DNA of 64,000 nucleotides from Goekera deserti (GTDB lineage: Bacteria > Actinomycetota > Actinomycetes > Mycobacteriales > Geodermatophilaceae), in contig NZ_JAAGWK010000005.1 in NCBI RefSeq assembly GCF_010685995.1, forward strand, positions 124,001 through 188,000. Reading direction: 5' to 3'. This document shows, piece by piece, positions 20,311-57,485 of the stretch. The translations under genes were made by a program, and so were the position numbers. The notes below the pieces were generated by a model. It saw nothing but the letters and a program-made list of their open reading frames with translations. It was not told the origin of the DNA and made no database searches. Position 1 is the stretch's first letter, and each line of letters begins with the position of its first letter.

Positions 20311-21600
20311 GTGAGCACAGCGGCGGTCACCTCCCCGCGGGACCCGGCGTCATGGCGGTCCAGCACCCTGACCACCCCGCTCGGGCGGCGCCGCACCCCG
20401 CTGCTCCACCTGCTCCCCGTCGAGGGCGCAGTCTCCTGGGTGCGCCGCGGTGAGGGGCTCGTCGGCTGGGGCGAGGCCGACCGGCTGGAGGTGTCCGGGC
20501 CCGGCGCGCTCGCCGAGGCCCAGGAGTGGTGGGCCGACCGCTGCGCCCGCACCGCCGTCGTCGACCCGCTGCGGGTGCCCGGCTCCGGCCCGGTCGTGTT
20601 CGCCTCCATCGCCTTCGACACCGAGGCCTCGACGTCGGTCTTCGTCGTCCCCGAGGTGGTCGTGGGCCGCCGCGGCGGGCAGACCTGGGTGACCACCACC
20701 GACGACGCCGTGGACCGCCCGGTGTTCGAGACGTCGGGCGAGGAGGCGGACACCTCGATCGGCCAGCTGCGCTACGCCGACGGCTCGCTGGACCCGGTCA
20801 CCTGGTGCGGTGCGGTGGCCGCGGCCGTGGAGCGCATCGACGCCGGCGACCTGGCCAAGGTGGTGCTGGCCCGCGACCTGCTGGTCACCGCCGACCACCG
20901 GCTGGACCCGCGCCGGCTGCTGCTCCGGCTGGCCAGCCGCTTCCCCGACTGCTGGACCTTCGCCGTCGACGGCCTGCTCGGCGCCACCCCCGAGCTGCTG
21001 CTGCGCCGCACCGGCCGCGAGCTGTCCGCCCGGGTGCTGGCCGGAACCGCGCCCCGCGGGGCCGGCGCCGCGGACGACGTGCTGGCCGCCGGCCTGCTCG
21101 GCTCGGCGAAGGACCGGGCCGAGCACCGCTACGCGGTCGACTCGCTGGTCACCGCGCTGCAGCCGTTCTGCTCCGAGCTGGTCGCCCCGGCGGAGCCCGA
21201 GCTGCTCACCCTGCCCAACGTGCGGCACCTGGCCAGCGACGTGCGCGGCACCCAGCGGCGCAGCGGCGCCCGGGGGGCCGCCGGCCTGCTGGAGCTCGTG
21301 GACGCCGTGCACCCGACGGCCGCGGTCTGCGGCACGCCGACGCCGGTCGCGGCCCGGGTGATCGCCGAGCTGGAGGGCATGGACCGCGGCCGCTACGCCG
21401 GGCCGGTCGGCTGGCTGGACGCCCGGGGCGACGGCGAGTTCGGCATCGCGCTGCGCTGCGCCCAGCTCACCGGCGAGGACGGCGGCGCCCAGGCCCGGCT
21501 GTTCGCCGGCTGCGGCATCGTCGCCGGCTCCGACCCCGCGGCCGAGCTGGCCGAGACGCAGAACAAGCTCGCCGCCTTCCAGGCCGCCCTGGAGGACTGA
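20311..21600 (+). CDS. menF: Isochorismate synthase (MenF/EntC family)
   Basis: Chorismate-binding enzyme of 429 residues that makes isochorismate, the first step towards menaquinone. Family features in order: AKVVLARDL with the catalytic Lys near 190, [18 protein letters not shown], the HLASDVRG stretch, and [10 protein letters not shown] with GYAGPVGW-like sequence [17 protein letters not shown] near 370. No siderophore genes are nearby while menD lies immediately beyond, so the menaquinone role is preferred. The start is GTG at 20311 with CTCGGGGG before it. The stop runs directly into a repeat shared with two other genes (21603-21661). Confidence 0.9.
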
Positions 21601-21602
21601 GG

Positions 21603-21661
21603 AAGGACCCCGCTGCCCCCCCACCACTTGCACGCTCGCGGCGGGACCCTGCAGCGGGGCC
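21603..21661. repeat. Stop-codon-abutting palindromic repeat, copy A
   Basis: Begins two bases after the isochorismate synthase TGA and ends just before the menD stop, filling the convergent gap. Its reverse complement matches 56745-56802 with four substitutions and one base of length difference in a C run. GGACCCCGCTGC and GCAGCGGGGCC can pair as an 11-bp stem with one bulged A and a loop of about 35 bases. A bidirectional terminator is the simplest role. Confidence 0.75.
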
Positions 21662-21667
21662 GTCCGG

Positions 21668-23437
21668 TCAGCTCAGCGCGGTGGCGGCGGCATCCCGCAG
21701 GCGGGTGGCGAGCTCGGCCTCGGCGCGCTGGTCGGTGCGGACGACGACCACGCGCCGGCCACCGGCGGCCAGCGCCTGCTGCAGCTGGTCCGGCGTGGTG
21801 ACCGCCGTCGCCGGCCAGCCCAGCGCCCGGGCCACCGCGACCAGGTCTCGGCCGTGCGGGGTGCCGAACACCCGGCGGTACCGGTCGCGGTAGGCGTCAC
21901 GGCCGGGCTCGAGCTGGGCGAAGATCCCGCCGCCGTCGTTGTCACCGACGACGACGGTCAGGTCGGGCAGCGGCTCGCCGTCGCCCTCGACCAGCCCGGT
22001 CATGTCGTGCAGGAACGTGAGGTCGCCCATCAGCGCGAACGCCGGTCCGCCGCCGGCGGCCTGGTGGGCCAGGGCGGCGCCGGTCGCGGTGGAGATCGTG
22101 CCGTCGATGCCGGCCACGCCGCGGTTGGCCAGCACGGTCAGCCCGGCGCGGGGCACGGCCAGCCGGTCCACGTCGCGCACCGGGGTGGAGCTGCCCAGCA
22201 CCAGCAGGGCACCGGCCGGCAGCGCCGCCACCAGGTCGCGCGCCAGCCGCGCGGCGGTGAGCGCCGGCCGCCCGTCCACCGGTGCGTCCAGGACCGCGTC
22301 GACGGCGGCGCCGACCCGCGCGGCCGCGTCGGACCACGCCGGCAGCCAGGCCTCGTCCGTCGACCCCGCCGCGTCGGCACCGCCCAGCACGCTGCCCAGG
22401 TCGATCCGCACGCCACCCACCACGGCGCTGCCCCGCCCGGGGTCGGGCCAGCGCGGCGTGGGGCCCAGCGTCTCGACGGCGACGTCCGGGTCGGCCAGCA
22501 GGGCACCCACCGGCCGGGACAGGGTGGGCCGGCCGACCACGAGCACCCGGTCGGGCCGGTGCTCGGCGATCCAGTGCGGGGTGCCCAGCAGCAGCGCCGC
22601 GCCGCGCACCGCCCCGGTGGCCCCCCAGGCACCGCTGCTCGGCTCGGCCAGCACCGGCCAGCCGCGCTGGTCGGCGATCACCGCTGCCGCGCGGCCCACC
22701 GCGGTGGGCGCGTCCCCGGCGACCACGACGGTGCGACGGCGCCGCCGGCTGGCCAGCGAGGCCAGTGACGGCGCGGCCAGCGGCCCGGGCTCGGTGGCCG
22801 CCGAGGTCCACGGGGCGCCGTCCGGCCGGCCCGCCCAGGGCGAGGTCGGCTCGGCGCCGGGCTCGGCGGTGTCGTCGGCGTCCGGCATCAACGGGTCGCG
22901 CAGCGCCAGGTTCAGGTGCACCGGGCCGGGGTCGGCGGAGAGCGCTCCGACGGCCAGCAGCAGCGCCCGCGCGGTGAGCGAGCGCCAGTAGCGGTTCTGC
23001 ACGGCCTCCCGGCCGGGCTCGGGCACGCCCAGGTCGGCGGCGAAGCGCACCGCGCCGCCGTAGAGCCCGACCTGGTCGACTGTCTGGTTCGCGCCTGTGC
23101 TGCGCAGCTCCGGCGGGCGGTCGGCGGTCAACGCCAGCAGCGGCACCCCGCTGTGCGCCGCCTCCAGCACGGCGGCATGCAGATGGGCCGCGGCGGTGCC
23201 CGAGGTGGTGAGCACCGGCACCGGCCGGCCGGACGCCTTCGCCAGACCGAGGGCGAGGAAGGAACCGGTGCGCTCGTCGATGCGCACGTGCAGCCGCAAC
23301 CGGCCGGCGGCCTCGGCGTCGGCCAGCGCCAGGGCCACCGGCGCCGACCGCGACCCCGGGCAGACGACGGCGTCCCGCACGCCCCCGCGCAGCAGCTCGT
23401 CGACGAAGACCCGCGCGAAGGCGGTGGACGGGTTCAC
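21668..23437 (-). CDS. menD: SEPHCHC synthase (2-succinyl-5-enolpyruvyl-6-hydroxy-3-cyclohexene-1-carboxylate synthase)
   Basis: Thiamine-diphosphate enzyme of 589 residues that adds succinic semialdehyde from 2-oxoglutarate to isochorismate. The N-terminal pyrimidine domain shows CPGSRSAPVALAL, DERTGSFLALGLAK (catalytic Glu) and TSGTAAAHLHAAVLEA; the C-terminal domain shows RGVAGIDGTISTA and the ThDP-metal motif GDLTFLHDM ... DNDGGGIF. The GTG start at 23437 overlaps the menC stop as GTGA. It is convergent with the isochorismate synthase gene that supplies its substrate. Confidence 0.96.
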   Translation of the reverse strand: MNPSTAFARVFVDELLRGGVRDAVVCPGSRSAPVALALADAEAAGRLRLHVRIDERTGSFLALGLAKASGRPVPVLTTSGTAAAHLHAAVLEAAHSGVPLLALTADRPPELRSTGANQTVDQVGLYGGAVRFAADLGVPEPGREAVQNRYWRSLTARALLLAVGALSADPGPVHLNLALRDPLMPDADDTAEPGAEPTSPWAGRPDGAPWTSAATEPGPLAAPSLASLASRRRRRTVVVAGDAPTAVGRAAAVIADQRGWPVLAEPSSGAWGATGAVRGAALLLGTPHWIAEHRPDRVLVVGRPTLSRPVGALLADPDVAVETLGPTPRWPDPGRGSAVVGGVRIDLGSVLGGADAAGSTDEAWLPAWSDAAARVGAAVDAVLDAPVDGRPALTAARLARDLVAALPAGALLVLGSSTPVRDVDRLAVPRAGLTVLANRGVAGIDGTISTATGAALAHQAAGGGPAFALMGDLTFLHDMTGLVEGDGEPLPDLTVVVGDNDGGGIFAQLEPGRDAYRDRYRRVFGTPHGRDLVAVARALGWPATAVTTPDQLQQALAAGGRRVVVVRTDQRAEAELATRLRDAAATALS

Positions 23438-24441: not shown

Positions 24442-24453
24442 CCGTCCAGCGTA

Positions 24454-24513
24454 GAAGGACCCCGTCGCCCGCCACGCCCCGCTCCGCTCGCCGCGGGCCC
24501 CGGCGACGAGGCC
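24454..24513. repeat. Diverged relative of the palindromic repeat (copy D)
   Basis: This 60-base stretch in the menC-menE divergent gap aligns without gaps to copy A (GAAGGACCCCG start, CGCTCG...CGCGGG middle, GGCC end) at about 70% identity. Stem bases differ from copy A on both sides in a compensating way (CGTCGCC opposite GGCGACG). Unlike the other copies it lies beside start codons. Confidence 0.5.
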
Positions 24514-24528
24514 ATAGGGTGGTCAGTC

Positions 24529-50014: not shown

Positions 50015-50342
50015 GGTGGTGCTCCCGACGTCGTGGTCGCGCGGTGCCCAGGCGGTGACCCGGAGGTCAGGCCGGACCACCCCGGCGAGGTGATCAAGTC
50101 GACGGTGTCCCGCCCTCGCGGGCGGTGACCGAACGAACGGCCAGCGTACCCGGCGCCGTCCCGGTGCGGTCCGGCAGGCGCTGGACCCACTCCCGACAGC
50201 ACGCGCGACGGACCCAGCCGGCCCGTGTGCTCGAGCCGCTCCTCCCCGGGACCAGCCTCCGCACCAGCGGCCGCCCACTCCCGGCCCCGGCGCAGGGCCC
50301 CGCCCCGGGCGTGCGAGGGGTGAGGGGCAACAGGGTCCTTCC
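50015..50342. other. Spacer between the BdtA-like gene and bS22, no gene
   Basis: 328 bases without a supported gene. On the minus strand, TACGCT near 50150 could be the -10 of the bS22 promoter, giving a leader of about 120 bases. CCGCCCTCGCGGGCGG at 50110-50125 would form a hairpin in that leader. The left-hand 60 bases before the BdtA-like stop are repeat copy C. Confidence 0.5.
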
Positions 50343-50346
50343 TCAG
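50283..50346. repeat. Stop-codon-abutting palindromic repeat, copy C
   Basis: Aligns over 64 bases with copy B (56745-56808) at roughly 50 of 64 positions. It includes the stop codon of the BdtA-like gene: on that strand TGA is followed by GGAAGGACCC, the same ten bases that follow the isochorismate synthase stop at 21600. The long stem is less well preserved here than in copies A and B. Confidence 0.65.
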
Positions 50347-50690
50347 GCGATGTCGGTGTACGCGTCGCGCAGGTAGTCCTGGACGGCGCGCTCCGGCACC
50401 CGGAAGGACCGGCCGACACGGACGGCGGAGAGCTCGCCACCGTGCACGAGGCGGTACACGGTCATCTTCGAGACGCGCATCATCGCGGCGACCTCGGCCA
50501 CGGTGAGGAACGTGACGGCGGCGCGCTGCGGCGGGGCGACGTTCGGGCGGCCCACCGGCATCGCGGCGGGGTGCTGCGCGGGGACGGGGCGGGCGACGGC
50601 AGCGGCGTTCATCGGACGGCCGCCCATGGGGCGGGGTCCGGCGTTCAGCGGGCGGTGCGCGGGCATCGGCTGGCGCTGGGGCATGGTCAT
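50343..50690 (-). CDS. Excisionase-family helix-turn-helix protein (BdtA-like)
   Basis: About 115 residues. The N-terminal ~58 are Pro/Met/Arg-rich (MPAHRPLNAGPRPMGG) and disordered; the C-terminal ~55 form a MerR/excisionase winged helix: FLTVAEVAAMMRVSKMTVYRL followed by VGRSFRVPERAVQDYL. It matches the conserved DNA-binding protein found next to bS22 and proC in actinobacteria; from memory the Streptomyces counterpart is bdtA (SCO3328), a BldD target. The start at 50690 is preferred because GGAG lies 9 bases upstream; ATG at 50699 abuts it. The long upstream region contains two palindromes. Confidence 0.88.
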   Translation of the reverse strand: MTMPQRQPMPAHRPLNAGPRPMGGRPMNAAAVARPVPAQHPAAMPVGRPNVAPPQRAAVTFLTVAEVAAMMRVSKMTVYRLVHGGELSAVRVGRSFRVPERAVQDYLRDAYTDIA

Positions 50691-51157
50691 GTCGGTCATC
50701 TCCGTTAGCACGGATCGGGCCGCCGGCTTCCCCACCGGCGGACGGGACACGTACGTGCTGGAGATGAACCTAGGGGTCGCGTGTGACTCATGCGATGGGT
50801 GAAACGAACAGGTAGTGAGGGGATGCCTGGTCAACACCTGACCGCGCAGAGGCACCCACCACTCAATACGGCGAGTCGAAGCCGAATCCGTGCCCCTTCG
50901 TGACTCTCCGTCGACAAATCGGCGGGTCGACCGAGGACCAAAGACCCTGGCTGCCCCGTTACCCGACTGGCTCTGCTGCCACACGGGTCGTGCGCTGGCA
51001 CTTTCTCGATCGAACCGTGCGTCCCACTAGCATCAGCGAACACATCTGTACCCGCCGGGTACGACACGCGTGTAGTTCTGCCAGTGTCCCGTGGGCGGGG
51101 TGGGCGCTCCTGGGCCCACCCCCGGAGCCCCGACGAGCCGGACACCGCCCCGGACGG
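50691..51157. promoter_or_regulatory. Long upstream region of the BdtA-like gene with two palindromes
   Basis: 467 bases without a gene, visibly lower in GC than the rest. GTACCCGCCGGGTAC at 51048-51062 is a perfect 15-base palindrome, and ACACGCGTGT at 51064-51073 follows after one base. Such a long AT-richer leader suggests a heavily regulated promoter for the minus-strand gene. I found no convincing BldD box. No small gene in it could be supported. Confidence 0.6.
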
Positions 51158-52287: not shown

Positions 52288-52329
52288 GTAGGCCGGGCCG
52301 CCCCCGCCCGCACGAACACCCTGCCCCCC

Positions 52330-52427
52330 GCGGCCACTTCCGCGGAAAGGGCCGGACCACCCGCGGCCACTTCCGCGGAAAGGGCCGGACCACCAGCGGC
52401 CACTTCCGCGGAAAGGGCCGGACCGCC
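52330..52427. repeat. Three tandem 33-bp repeats with a TTCCGCGGAA core
   Basis: Units start at 52330, 52363 and 52396. Each begins GCGGCCACTTCCGCGGAA and continues AGGGCCGGACC(A/G)CC; the three differ at only one or two positions. TTCCGCGGAA in each unit is a perfect 10-bp palindrome, and the 33-bp spacing is close to three helical turns. The array lies between the hypothetical proC-linked frame and the next membrane-protein gene, beginning 7 bases beyond the latter's stop. Confidence 0.85.
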
Positions 52428-52433
52428 GGCGGA

Positions 52434-53201
52434 TCAGGTCGGGGAGAGCAGGCCTGCCGCCGGGACGATGACCAGCAGCGTGCCGGCGAAGAGCAGGACC
52501 AGGAGCAGCGGGAGGCCGACCGGGCCGCGACCGCGTCGCTGCCGCCACCAGCCGACCCCGCCGACCAGCCCGGTCACCGCCAGCGGTGCCGCGACGACGG
52601 CCGCGTAGGGGGCCAGGTCCCACAGCAGGCTGAACACGTAGTGGACGGCGATGCCGACCGCGGCGGCCGCGACGATCTCCAGGCCGAACCGCAGCCAGGC
52701 CAGCACCCCGGCCAGGCCGGTGAGCGGTTCCTCGTCCTCCTCCTCGGGCGCCAGGCTCTCGCCCGCGGCGGCCGCGGCGGCCAGGGCGGCCCGCCGCTTG
52801 CGCTCGGCAGCCCGCTGCTCCTCCGTCCACACGGTGCGCGGGCCGGTGGTCGGGGCGCGCCGGTCACCGGACGGCGGACCGGGCACCTCCGGCTTGCGGG
52901 AGACACGGAGGCCGTCGATCGCCTCGGTGGTCGGCTCGGCGCGGGCGAAGGCCGTCGTCCCGGTGGCGGGCAGCACCGGCGGGACGACGTCGGTGGCACG
53001 GCGTCCGTAGACCACCTTGCCGGGGCCGGTCAGCGGCTCACCCTCGGGGAAGAAGCGGCGCTGGGCGGCGGGGTCGACGCCGTCCCGGGGCTCGGGGTCG
53101 GTCGAGCGCCGACGGCGGCCGGGCCGCGTCGGGGCGTCGACGCCGGCCTCCCGGAGGATGTCGGCCAGCGACCTCCCCGGGTCGGTCTGCTCCCCTGCCA
53201 T
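52434..53201 (-). CDS. Conserved membrane protein next to exopolyphosphatase
   Basis: 255 residues. The N-terminal motif [23 protein letters not shown] is characteristic of the actinobacterial family at this location (as I recall Rv0497). A long charged linker follows, with [18 protein letters not shown] and an acidic EEEDEEP stretch, then three hydrophobic helices (about 160-180, 190-208 and 225-245). The ATG at 53201 shares a base with the ppx stop (TGATG), so the pair is translationally coupled. Function unknown. Confidence 0.8.
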
Positions 53202-54145
53202 CACGCTCCCTCGATCTGGTCCAGTCGACGCAGGATGACACCTTCGCGCAGTGCCCACGGGCAGACACGGACGAACGGTACGTCCACGGCACGCATGGCG
53301 GCCTGCGCCACGACGGCGCCCGCGGGCACCTGGTGGGCGCGGTCCACCGACACCCCCTGCAGCTCGGCCAGCGCGGAGGACTCGATCCGGGAGACGAAGC
53401 CGACGAGCTGCTCCAGCCCGGCCAGGCTGAGCTGCCGGTCCACGCGCAGGCCGGCGTCGTACGGCGCGGCGCCGGTGAGCCGGGCCAGCGTGCGGAAGGT
53501 CTTGGAGGTGGCGACGGCGACGTCCGGCTGGCCGGCGCTGCGCAGTCGCTTGGCGGCCGGTGCGAGCAGCCGCTTGGCATAGACGTCGAGCGCGGCGAGG
53601 GCTTCCAGGTCGGGCCGGCCGCCGTCGTGGGCGGCGGGCAGGAACCGGCGGGTCATCCGGCCGGCGCCCAGCGGCAGGGACAGCGCCACGTCGGGCTCCT
53701 CGTCCAGGCCGGCGGCCAGCTCCAGCGAGCCGCCGCCGATGTCCAGCACCAGCAGCCGGCCCGCGCTCCAGCCGAACCAGCGGCGCACGGCGAGGAAGGT
53801 CAGCTCGGCCTCCTGCTCACCGGACAGCACGGTCAGCTCGACACCGGTCTGCTCCCGCACCCGGCGCAGCACCGCCGGGCCGTTCTCGGCGTCCCGGATG
53901 GCCGAGGTGACGAAGGTGAGCAGCTCCTCGCACTTCTGCTCCTCGGCCTGCTGCACCGCCCGCTGCACGGCCGCCACCAGGCCCTTCTCCCCCGCCTTGG
54001 ACAGCATCCCGTCGGCACCGACGTGCTCGGCGAGCCGCAGCATCGACTTGTCGTCGTGCATCGGCGTCGGGTGCGCACCCCGGTGGGCGTCGACCACCAG
54101 CAGGTGCACGGTGTTCGAGCCGATGTCGAGGACTCCCAGGCGCAT
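53201..54145 (-). CDS. ppx: Exopolyphosphatase/guanosine pentaphosphatase (Ppx/GppA)
   Basis: ASKHA-fold phosphatase of 314 residues. The phosphate-binding loop [14 protein letters not shown] near 6-19, the catalytic-Glu region [11 protein letters not shown] near 108-118 and the second loop [11 protein letters not shown] near 147 are all present. It lacks the C-terminal HD-like domain of the long enterobacterial enzyme, as expected for the short actinobacterial Ppx1 type. It may link polyphosphate turnover with the RegX3/SenX3/PhoU genes nearby. Divergent from the Cys-rich protein gene. Confidence 0.92.
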
Positions 54146-56609: not shown

Positions 56610-56744
56610 CCGCCGGCCCGGCCGGCCCGCGCCAGGACCACCACCGCCGCAGGCGGTCGGTCCGGACGGCGGGCCCGCCGGGTCCACCTCCGGACCGACG
56701 GGAAGCGCTCAGCCCAACCCAACCCGGCACCTCGCACGCGACCC

Positions 56745-56802
56745 GGCCCCGCTGCAGGGTCCCTCCGCGAGCGTGCTCGTGGTGGGGGGCAGCGGGGTCC
56801 TC
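56745..56802. repeat. Stop-codon-abutting palindromic repeat, copy B
   Basis: Nearly identical to the reverse complement of 21603-21661 (four substitutions and one base of length). It ends two bases before the regX3 stop codon, in the convergent gap between the DUF3072 gene and regX3. GGCCCCGCTGC and GCAGCGGGGTCC form the outer stem. Confidence 0.75.
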
Positions 56803-56804
56803 CG

Positions 56805-57485
56805 TCAGACCTCGAACTTGTAGCCCAGGCCGCGCACGGTGAGCAGGTACTGCGGGTTGGCCGGGTCCGGCTCGACCTTGGCCCGCAGTCGCTTGACGTG
56901 CACGTCGAGGGTCTTGGTGTCCCCGACGTAGTCCGAGCCCCAGACCCGGTCGATGAGCTGGCCCCGGGTGAGCACCCGCCCGGCGTTGCGCAGCAGCAGC
57001 TCGAGCAGGTCGAACTCCTTGAGCGGCAGCGAGACGGGCTCCCCGGCGACGGCGACCACGTGCCGGTCGACGTCCATCCGCACCGGCCCGGCGGCGAGCG
57101 CGCCGTCCTCGCTGGGCTCGGGCTCGCCGCGGCGGCGCAGCACCGCGCGCATCCGGGCCACCAGCTCACGGGCGGAGTAGGGCTTGGTGACGTAGTCGTC
57201 GGCGCCGAGCTCGAGGCCGACGACCTTGTCGATCTCGGTGTCCTTCGCGGTGAGCATGATGATCGGCACGGCGCTCTTGGACCGCAGCGTGCGGCAGACC
57301 TCGGTGCCCGGCAGGCCGGGCAGCATGAGGTCCAGCAGCACGATGTCGGCGCCGCCCCGGTCGAACTCGGCGAGGGCGTCGGGCCCGTTGGCCGCGACGA
57401 CCGTCTCGTAGCCCTCCCGCCGCAGCATGTAGGACAGCGCATCGGAGAAGGACTCCTCGTCCTCCACCACGAGCACTCGCGTCAT
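56805..57485 (-). CDS. regX3: Response regulator RegX3 (OmpR/PhoB family)
   Basis: 226-residue two-component regulator. The receiver domain has the acidic pair VVEDEE near 6-11, phosphorylated Asp in VLLDLMLPG near 52, Thr in LTAKD and Lys in VTKPYSA. The C-terminal winged helix shows LPLKEFDLLELLL, LIDRVWG, KTLDVHVKRLRAKVE and RGLGYKF. Linkage with a SenX3-like kinase and phoU identifies it as the phosphate-responsive RegX3/PhoP-type regulator. ATGA overlap with the kinase gene. Confidence 0.94.
   Translation of the reverse strand: MTRVLVVEDEESFSDALSYMLRREGYETVVAANGPDALAEFDRGGADIVLLDLMLPGLPGTEVCRTLRSKSAVPIIMLTAKDTEIDKVVGLELGADDYVTKPYSARELVARMRAVLRRRGEPEPSEDGALAAGPVRMDVDRHVVAVAGEPVSLPLKEFDLLELLLRNAGRVLTRGQLIDRVWGSDYVGDTKTLDVHVKRLRAKVEPDPANPQYLLTVRGLGYKFEV

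Follow-up and report, generated by a model that had tools for sequence, protein, structure and literature searches.

The analysed window, a 64,000-nucleotide stretch of the Goekera deserti genome, carries four copies of a palindromic unit. The first (21601-21662, plus strand) begins at +1 after the TGA stop codon (21598-21600) of the isochorismate synthase gene (20311-21600, plus strand); its outer stem is formed by GGACCCCGCTGC and GCAGCGGGGCC, and the stop of the convergent menD gene lies beyond it, at 21668. The second (56744-56804, minus strand) is located directly 3' of the TGA (56805-56807) of a regX3-like response regulator gene (56805-57476, minus strand). The third and more diverged copy (50282-50342, minus strand) follows the TGA (50343-50345) of an excisionase/HTH_17 (BldC/BdtA-like) gene (50343-50699, minus strand) in the same manner. 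The initial annotation had described these three copies as abutting the stop codons of different genes, and all of them do lie directly behind a TGA. Its report of a common sequence after the TGA in two copies also holds, with TGAGGAAGGACCC present in copies 1 and 3, and TGACGGAGGACCC in copy 2. Copies 1 and 2, said there to be over 90% identical, measured 90-92%, and copy 3 shows 77-82% identity to the other two. The fourth copy (24450-24522, plus strand), absent from that annotation, was detected with a covariance model (E = 1.3e-9) and shows about 68% identity to the other window copies. It fills the gap and promoter region of the divergent menC (minus strand) and menE (plus strand) genes, away from any stop codon. 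The window also contains, at 52324-52432, about three 33-base direct tandem repeats (GCGGCCACTTCCGCGGAAAGGGCCGGACCACC-like) that adjoin the 3' end of a gene at 52434-53204 (minus strand).

The three stop-abutting copies are members of a dispersed palindromic family that is far larger than originally noted. A blast-type search returned 46 matches in the G. deserti genome, and a covariance model built from 76 aligned units yielded at least 137 at E <= 0.01 among the 150 candidates scored. With the same model, matches were obtained in 28 of 37 genomes of the Geodermatophilaceae, most of them harboring 50 to more than 80 copies each. The 24 genomes sampled from other families in the order gave none, and 197 further genomes drawn from the class gave a single weak one. 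The exact core was identified in at least 118 stretches of public contigs; among the matches listed, all named ones belong to the Geodermatophilaceae (Geodermatophilus, Blastococcus, Modestobacter, Klenkia and Trujillonella). Copy number ranges from 1 to more than 80 among congeners, and near-complete loss is seen in single members of a genus (1 copy in G026 and 5 in G003, against at least 50 in their congeners), a scarcity that hints at the loss of a trans-acting factor. The G. deserti rpoB gene shows 96-99% identity to genus g4, and the sample from its genome comprised contig C19 and parts of contig C32.

Within the G. deserti genome, the copies match one another at E = 1e-14 to 1e-20, far above chance. 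Hairpins native to these genomes are likewise found immediately 3' of stop codons (those of rpoB and regX3), as would be expected if the units were ordinary bidirectional terminators that had evolved independently and were alike merely through the GC-richness of the genome. This explanation is extremely improbable: it is refuted by the identity among the units, which share 60-77 nt of common sequence at those E-values across unrelated genes, have a fixed polarity and carry a shared tail directly behind their hairpins.

The unit consists of a core of about 61 bp, with a left foot (NGAAGGACC) and a right end (GGCCGTTCCAKCACGTCACC), and its complete form extends to about 77 bp with a tail (GTTCCAKCACGTCACC). 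The outer stem of about 10 bp undergoes free compensatory change and the inner stem also shows compensatory change, while an AGGG bulge and the tip are conserved. Two-sided changes are found at 10 of 19 pairs, and 97.4% of cells are paired; none of 500 shuffles performed equally well, and slid structures fall to 42-58% paired. These results demonstrate selection on pairing and conservation of the hairpin. The tail is kept by some copies, directly behind the unit hairpins, and its TTCC can pair with the GGAA behind the stop codon, so that the foot of the hairpin can begin at +1. A unit hairpin precedes 26 of the 32 tail matches in 3.17 Mb of sampled sequence, and the others resemble chance similarity within coding sequence or units with an internal deletion. 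Full units are in places followed by tandem arrays of half-units, each 45-47 bp long and spanning the region from the hairpin tip to where the GTTCCAGCACGTCACC tail ends (L342, L351, L349, L094:6078-6200).

The association with stop codons was quantified, independently of any gene caller, on 225 non-redundant units with an intact left foot. A stop triplet is found 0-8 nt before the left foot GGACC in 194 of these units, compared to 12-32 in control windows shifted by -90 to +150 nt, and in 166 of the 194 this stop, 0-7 nt from the foot, closes a coding-like frame that is 80 codons or longer, compared to 0-2 in the controls. When genes were called with a purpose-made caller, distances from the unit to the stop upstream of it formed a sharp peak at zero. 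The spacing between stop and foot has a mode of 4 nt and falls within 0-5 nt for most copies, with TGA+4 (102 units), TGA+1 (13), TAG+2 (11), TAG+5 (8) and TAA+0 (7) as the commonest junction classes. Among 167 public copies, 105 are correctly oriented and registered, where random insertion and orientation would give about 26, and 14 present their opposite end near a stop; the registered end is the GGAAGG end. On contig C19, 21 of 23 matches show a stop on the same strand within their first bases or shortly ahead of them, one of the 21 being about 10 nt off. Consistent with the registration to stops initially proposed, the position of the copies with respect to stop codons is thus non-random, both genome-wide and across the family. 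Many members of the non-registered minority are tandem or nested copies; some units lie within the tip of a second unit, and one occupies the loop of a native hairpin resembling a terminator. These nested copies and the fourth copy of the window, away from stops, indicate that a stop codon is not an absolute requirement.

Insertion specific to the TGA sequence was rejected, since TAG and TAA codons are abutted too and the stops concerned are in-frame gene stops rather than TGA triplets in general. Usage of TGA and TAG at the units is near genomic rates (about 12% for TAG), and TAA is somewhat over-represented. Dispersal might conceivably be coupled to the terminating ribosome or to an mRNA cut at the stop, in which case all three stops, in any context, would become insertion sites, but we consider such coupling decidedly unlikely. 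We know of no other mobile element that is targeted by recognition of translation stops themselves.

The hairpin is also polar with respect to the gene that it follows. The strand antisense to the gene folds more stably in 75 of 76 units, with a mean fold energy of -39.2 kcal/mol versus -31.4 kcal/mol for the sense strand (a difference of 7.8). The antisense strand carries 200 G-U cells versus 7 A-C cells, the sense strand presenting A-C at the G-U positions, and a conserved tandem G-A is found on the antisense strand in 61 of 76 units. Where the outer-arm pairs vary freely, G-U and A-C mismatches are, by our reading, of similar frequency; the asymmetry sits in the conserved core and could be an ancestral, inherited property. 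The antisense stem is followed by a conserved, weakly U-rich UCCUUC, and the 9 nt after the stem contain 3.86 T on the antisense strand versus 1.34 on the sense strand. Neither strand of the unit shows a clear canonical U-tract.

This polarity bears on the possibility that the unit acts in the sense RNA, as a translational or mRNA element: the hairpin foot, at 4 nt from the stop, would be encountered by the ribosome during termination, or would shield the 3' end of the mRNA from exonucleases, and in this way adjust the expression or stability of the upstream gene. A spacing of 0-5 nt would bring the stem inside the stretch covered by a ribosome positioned at the stop codon, and many copies lie behind highly expressed genes (rplK, rplA, rplL, rpoB, rpoA, nusG, groES, rpsN). 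There is also a precedent in the REPs of E. coli, since those within 15 nt of stop codons are proposed to stall ribosomes (PMC12306157). In the sense RNA, however, the inner stem carries A-C as well as U-C mismatches, and this RNA is on average the less stable one by the difference given above, which counts against a function that would be expected to select for the other strand. We regard a sense-strand role as unlikely.

Comparison of orthologous gene ends across 13 to 30 genomes of the family reveals patchy gain of the unit at orthologous stops. In the regX3, rpoB, rplA, rplK and G037|15 orthologs, the unit is wedged between a stop that has not changed and the native sequence. The regX3 site is occupied in individual members of several genera and empty in their congeners, and insertion sites are seldom common to congeners, although the numbers are small. 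In most relatives, a native hairpin (TGATCGGCCGCCGGCCGG...) is located directly 3' of the rpoB stop; in four genomes from three genera (G000, G007, G028, G036) it is replaced by a unit or unit-like hairpin, and in G034 by yet another hairpin. A unit/native hairpin exchange is also seen behind regX3 in G029. Downstream of rplA, a native hairpin has been retained and the unit stands between it and the stop in G010, G034 and G027, as does a diverged unit in G028. In G037, it parts two genes that overlap or stand within 15 nt of each other in relatives. We observed a hairpin right after the rpoB stop in nearly every genome of the family (L154:14120-14220, L184-L212); in some lineages (G034, G003) its sequence has been wholly turned over, and a hairpin is still kept.

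The C-termini of RpoB and RegX3 are equal in length in unit-bearing and unit-free orthologs, indicating that the stop belongs to the host gene; the notion that the element creates the stop is accordingly unsupported. The element also provides the start codon and signal-peptide coding sequence (MPPTARTLAAGPCMGAALLLAACS) of a downstream lipoprotein-like gene (group G042|57) in G042 (L294-L298) and G034 (L304-L308), with a diverged copy in G035. In the G. deserti genome, a unit is found behind each of nusG, rplK, rplA, rplL and rpoB (L155:2045-4382, L154:14214-18680).

Mobility of the palindrome is well supported. The initial annotation had offered two origins for the repeat. In the first, a mobile terminator cassette, the mobile part agrees with the patchy occurrence at orthologous stops, insertion before retained native hairpins, and nested and tandem copies; the terminator part is putative, neither strand showing a clear canonical U-tract and a unit being present at rpoB|rpoC. 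The second, spread by recombination with the stop codon as the edge, finds no direct support, the stops being those of the host genes.

The same distribution is compatible with a selfish palindrome devoid of host function, registered through its insertion mechanism (for instance, joining at the stop via a brief stretch of common sequence, or preferential use of native hairpins that abut stops) and through removal of harmful insertions. The wide variation in copy number among congeners, the rarity of insertions common to members of a genus, the nested, tandem and half-unit copies, and the variation of junction type with the stop codon (TGA+4/+1, TAG+2/+5, TAA+0) would all follow from such an origin. 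It accounts less readily for the strong compensatory evolution in both stems and for the way in which units and native hairpins have been exchanged at a given stop; both indicate that pairing is maintained after insertion. We consider a purely selfish nature doubtful, though by no means negligible.

Searches for a mobilizing element and for an origin were negative. No Y1/RAYT transposase (PF01797) was detected in 13 genomes of the family, G. deserti included, while the E. coli control gave a match, and RAYT/Y1 was thus rejected as the mobilizer. In seven unit-bearing loci, no Rfam 15 family overlapped the units at E <= 1, and blastn against plasmid and phage collections returned no match. A larger autonomous parent carrying the tail was sought in the 3.17 Mb sample and in 30 tail loci from 12 genomes. 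Most of the 30 loci are preceded by a unit or half-unit, and a parent with genes of its own was recognized in none of them.

Several known systems resemble the unit in part. The MIRU of mycobacteria is a short repeat of intergenic regions that lies against stop codons and can also provide the start of the gene that follows; MIRUs are tandem repeats rather than hairpins, and sit at overlapping stop/start junctions. Compared by general description, the unit shares with MIRU its nature as an actinobacterial intergenic repeat abutting stops, and differs in being a hairpin. Like intrinsic (Rho-independent) terminators, it forms a GC-rich stable hairpin at gene ends (antisense -39, sense -31 kcal/mol) that is exchangeable with native hairpins. 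In contrast to them, it constitutes a repeated sequence family, shows no clear canonical U-tract on either strand and occurs inside the rpoB|rpoC and rplK|rplA clusters.

As a high-copy extragenic palindrome with a variable paired stem, the unit family behaves like a REP. It is similar to the REP/GTAG palindromes of Proteobacteria in lying mostly 3' of genes, in co-directional or convergent gaps (PMC3733652, PMC2817692), and in being patchy between related strains, forming arrays, in some cases supplying or abutting stops, and in others lying inside other palindromes (PMC3733652, PMC2817692, PMC12306157). GTAG REPs often provide a TAG stop (PMC3733652), and the fraction of E. coli REPs within 15 nt of stops is given as 11% to about half depending on the study (PMC12306157). 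Unlike REPs, which span 20-40 bp, the unit measures about 61-77 bp, has an essentially fixed spacing to the stop (0-5 nt) in one orientation for most copies, possesses a core that is asymmetric, its G-U and G-A pairs being strand-specific, and is restricted to the Geodermatophilaceae. Unlike GTAG REPs, it lacks GTAG at the foot of its stem and has no Y1/RAYT transposase in the genomes searched. The CGTC-tagged REPs, including Rickettsia RPE-type repeats, are likewise palindromes without a dedicated transposase (PMC3733652), but their stem and loop sizes differ, and the unpaired CGTC tag at the palindrome foot that defines them (PMC3733652) is not seen in our units, where CGTC occurs only inside the distal tail of some copies. 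Since the GTAG tag, the CGTC foot tag and the RAYT association all failed, the unit was classed outside those superfamilies; we read it as a new family of REP-like mobile palindromes, and found no earlier description of it in the open-access literature.

The explanation that we propose, and to which we attach about an even chance, is that a Geodermatophilaceae-specific REP-like mobile palindrome is set directly behind stop codons in a fixed orientation by a non-RAYT machinery, and then serves as a polar 3' gene boundary. RNA antisense to the gene, arising from a convergent neighbor or from antisense transcription, would fold into the strong hairpin followed by UCCUUC and be stopped at the edge of the gene, and the weaker sense-strand hairpin would let operon transcription through while marking the 3' end of each cistron. 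A terminator or boundary function of the hairpin is what we infer from sequence; a polar boundary against antisense or convergent transcription would explain the strand asymmetry, the gene-edge position and the exchange with native hairpins, as well as the tolerance of units at rpoB|rpoC and rplK|rplA. A canonical sense-strand terminator is unlikely given the units at these two junctions, full termination at rpoB|rpoC being expected to cause harm. Counting against an antisense boundary, about 60% of registered copies precede a co-directional gene, where antisense transcription has no evident source, the UCCUUC tail is only weakly U-rich, and the strand asymmetry could be ancestral to the core.

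The location of REP-type repeats near gene ends has long been known, yet their targeting and the relevant strand have lacked a clear explanation. This hairpin repeat of some 60-80 bases is well suited for examining how repeats come to lie at gene ends and what role hairpins play there. Its near-exact position and fixed polarity, the hundreds of insertions and the empty sites available for comparison, and the absence of the usual transposase make both its targeting and the choice between an antisense boundary and a sense-strand effect testable in culturable Geodermatophilaceae.
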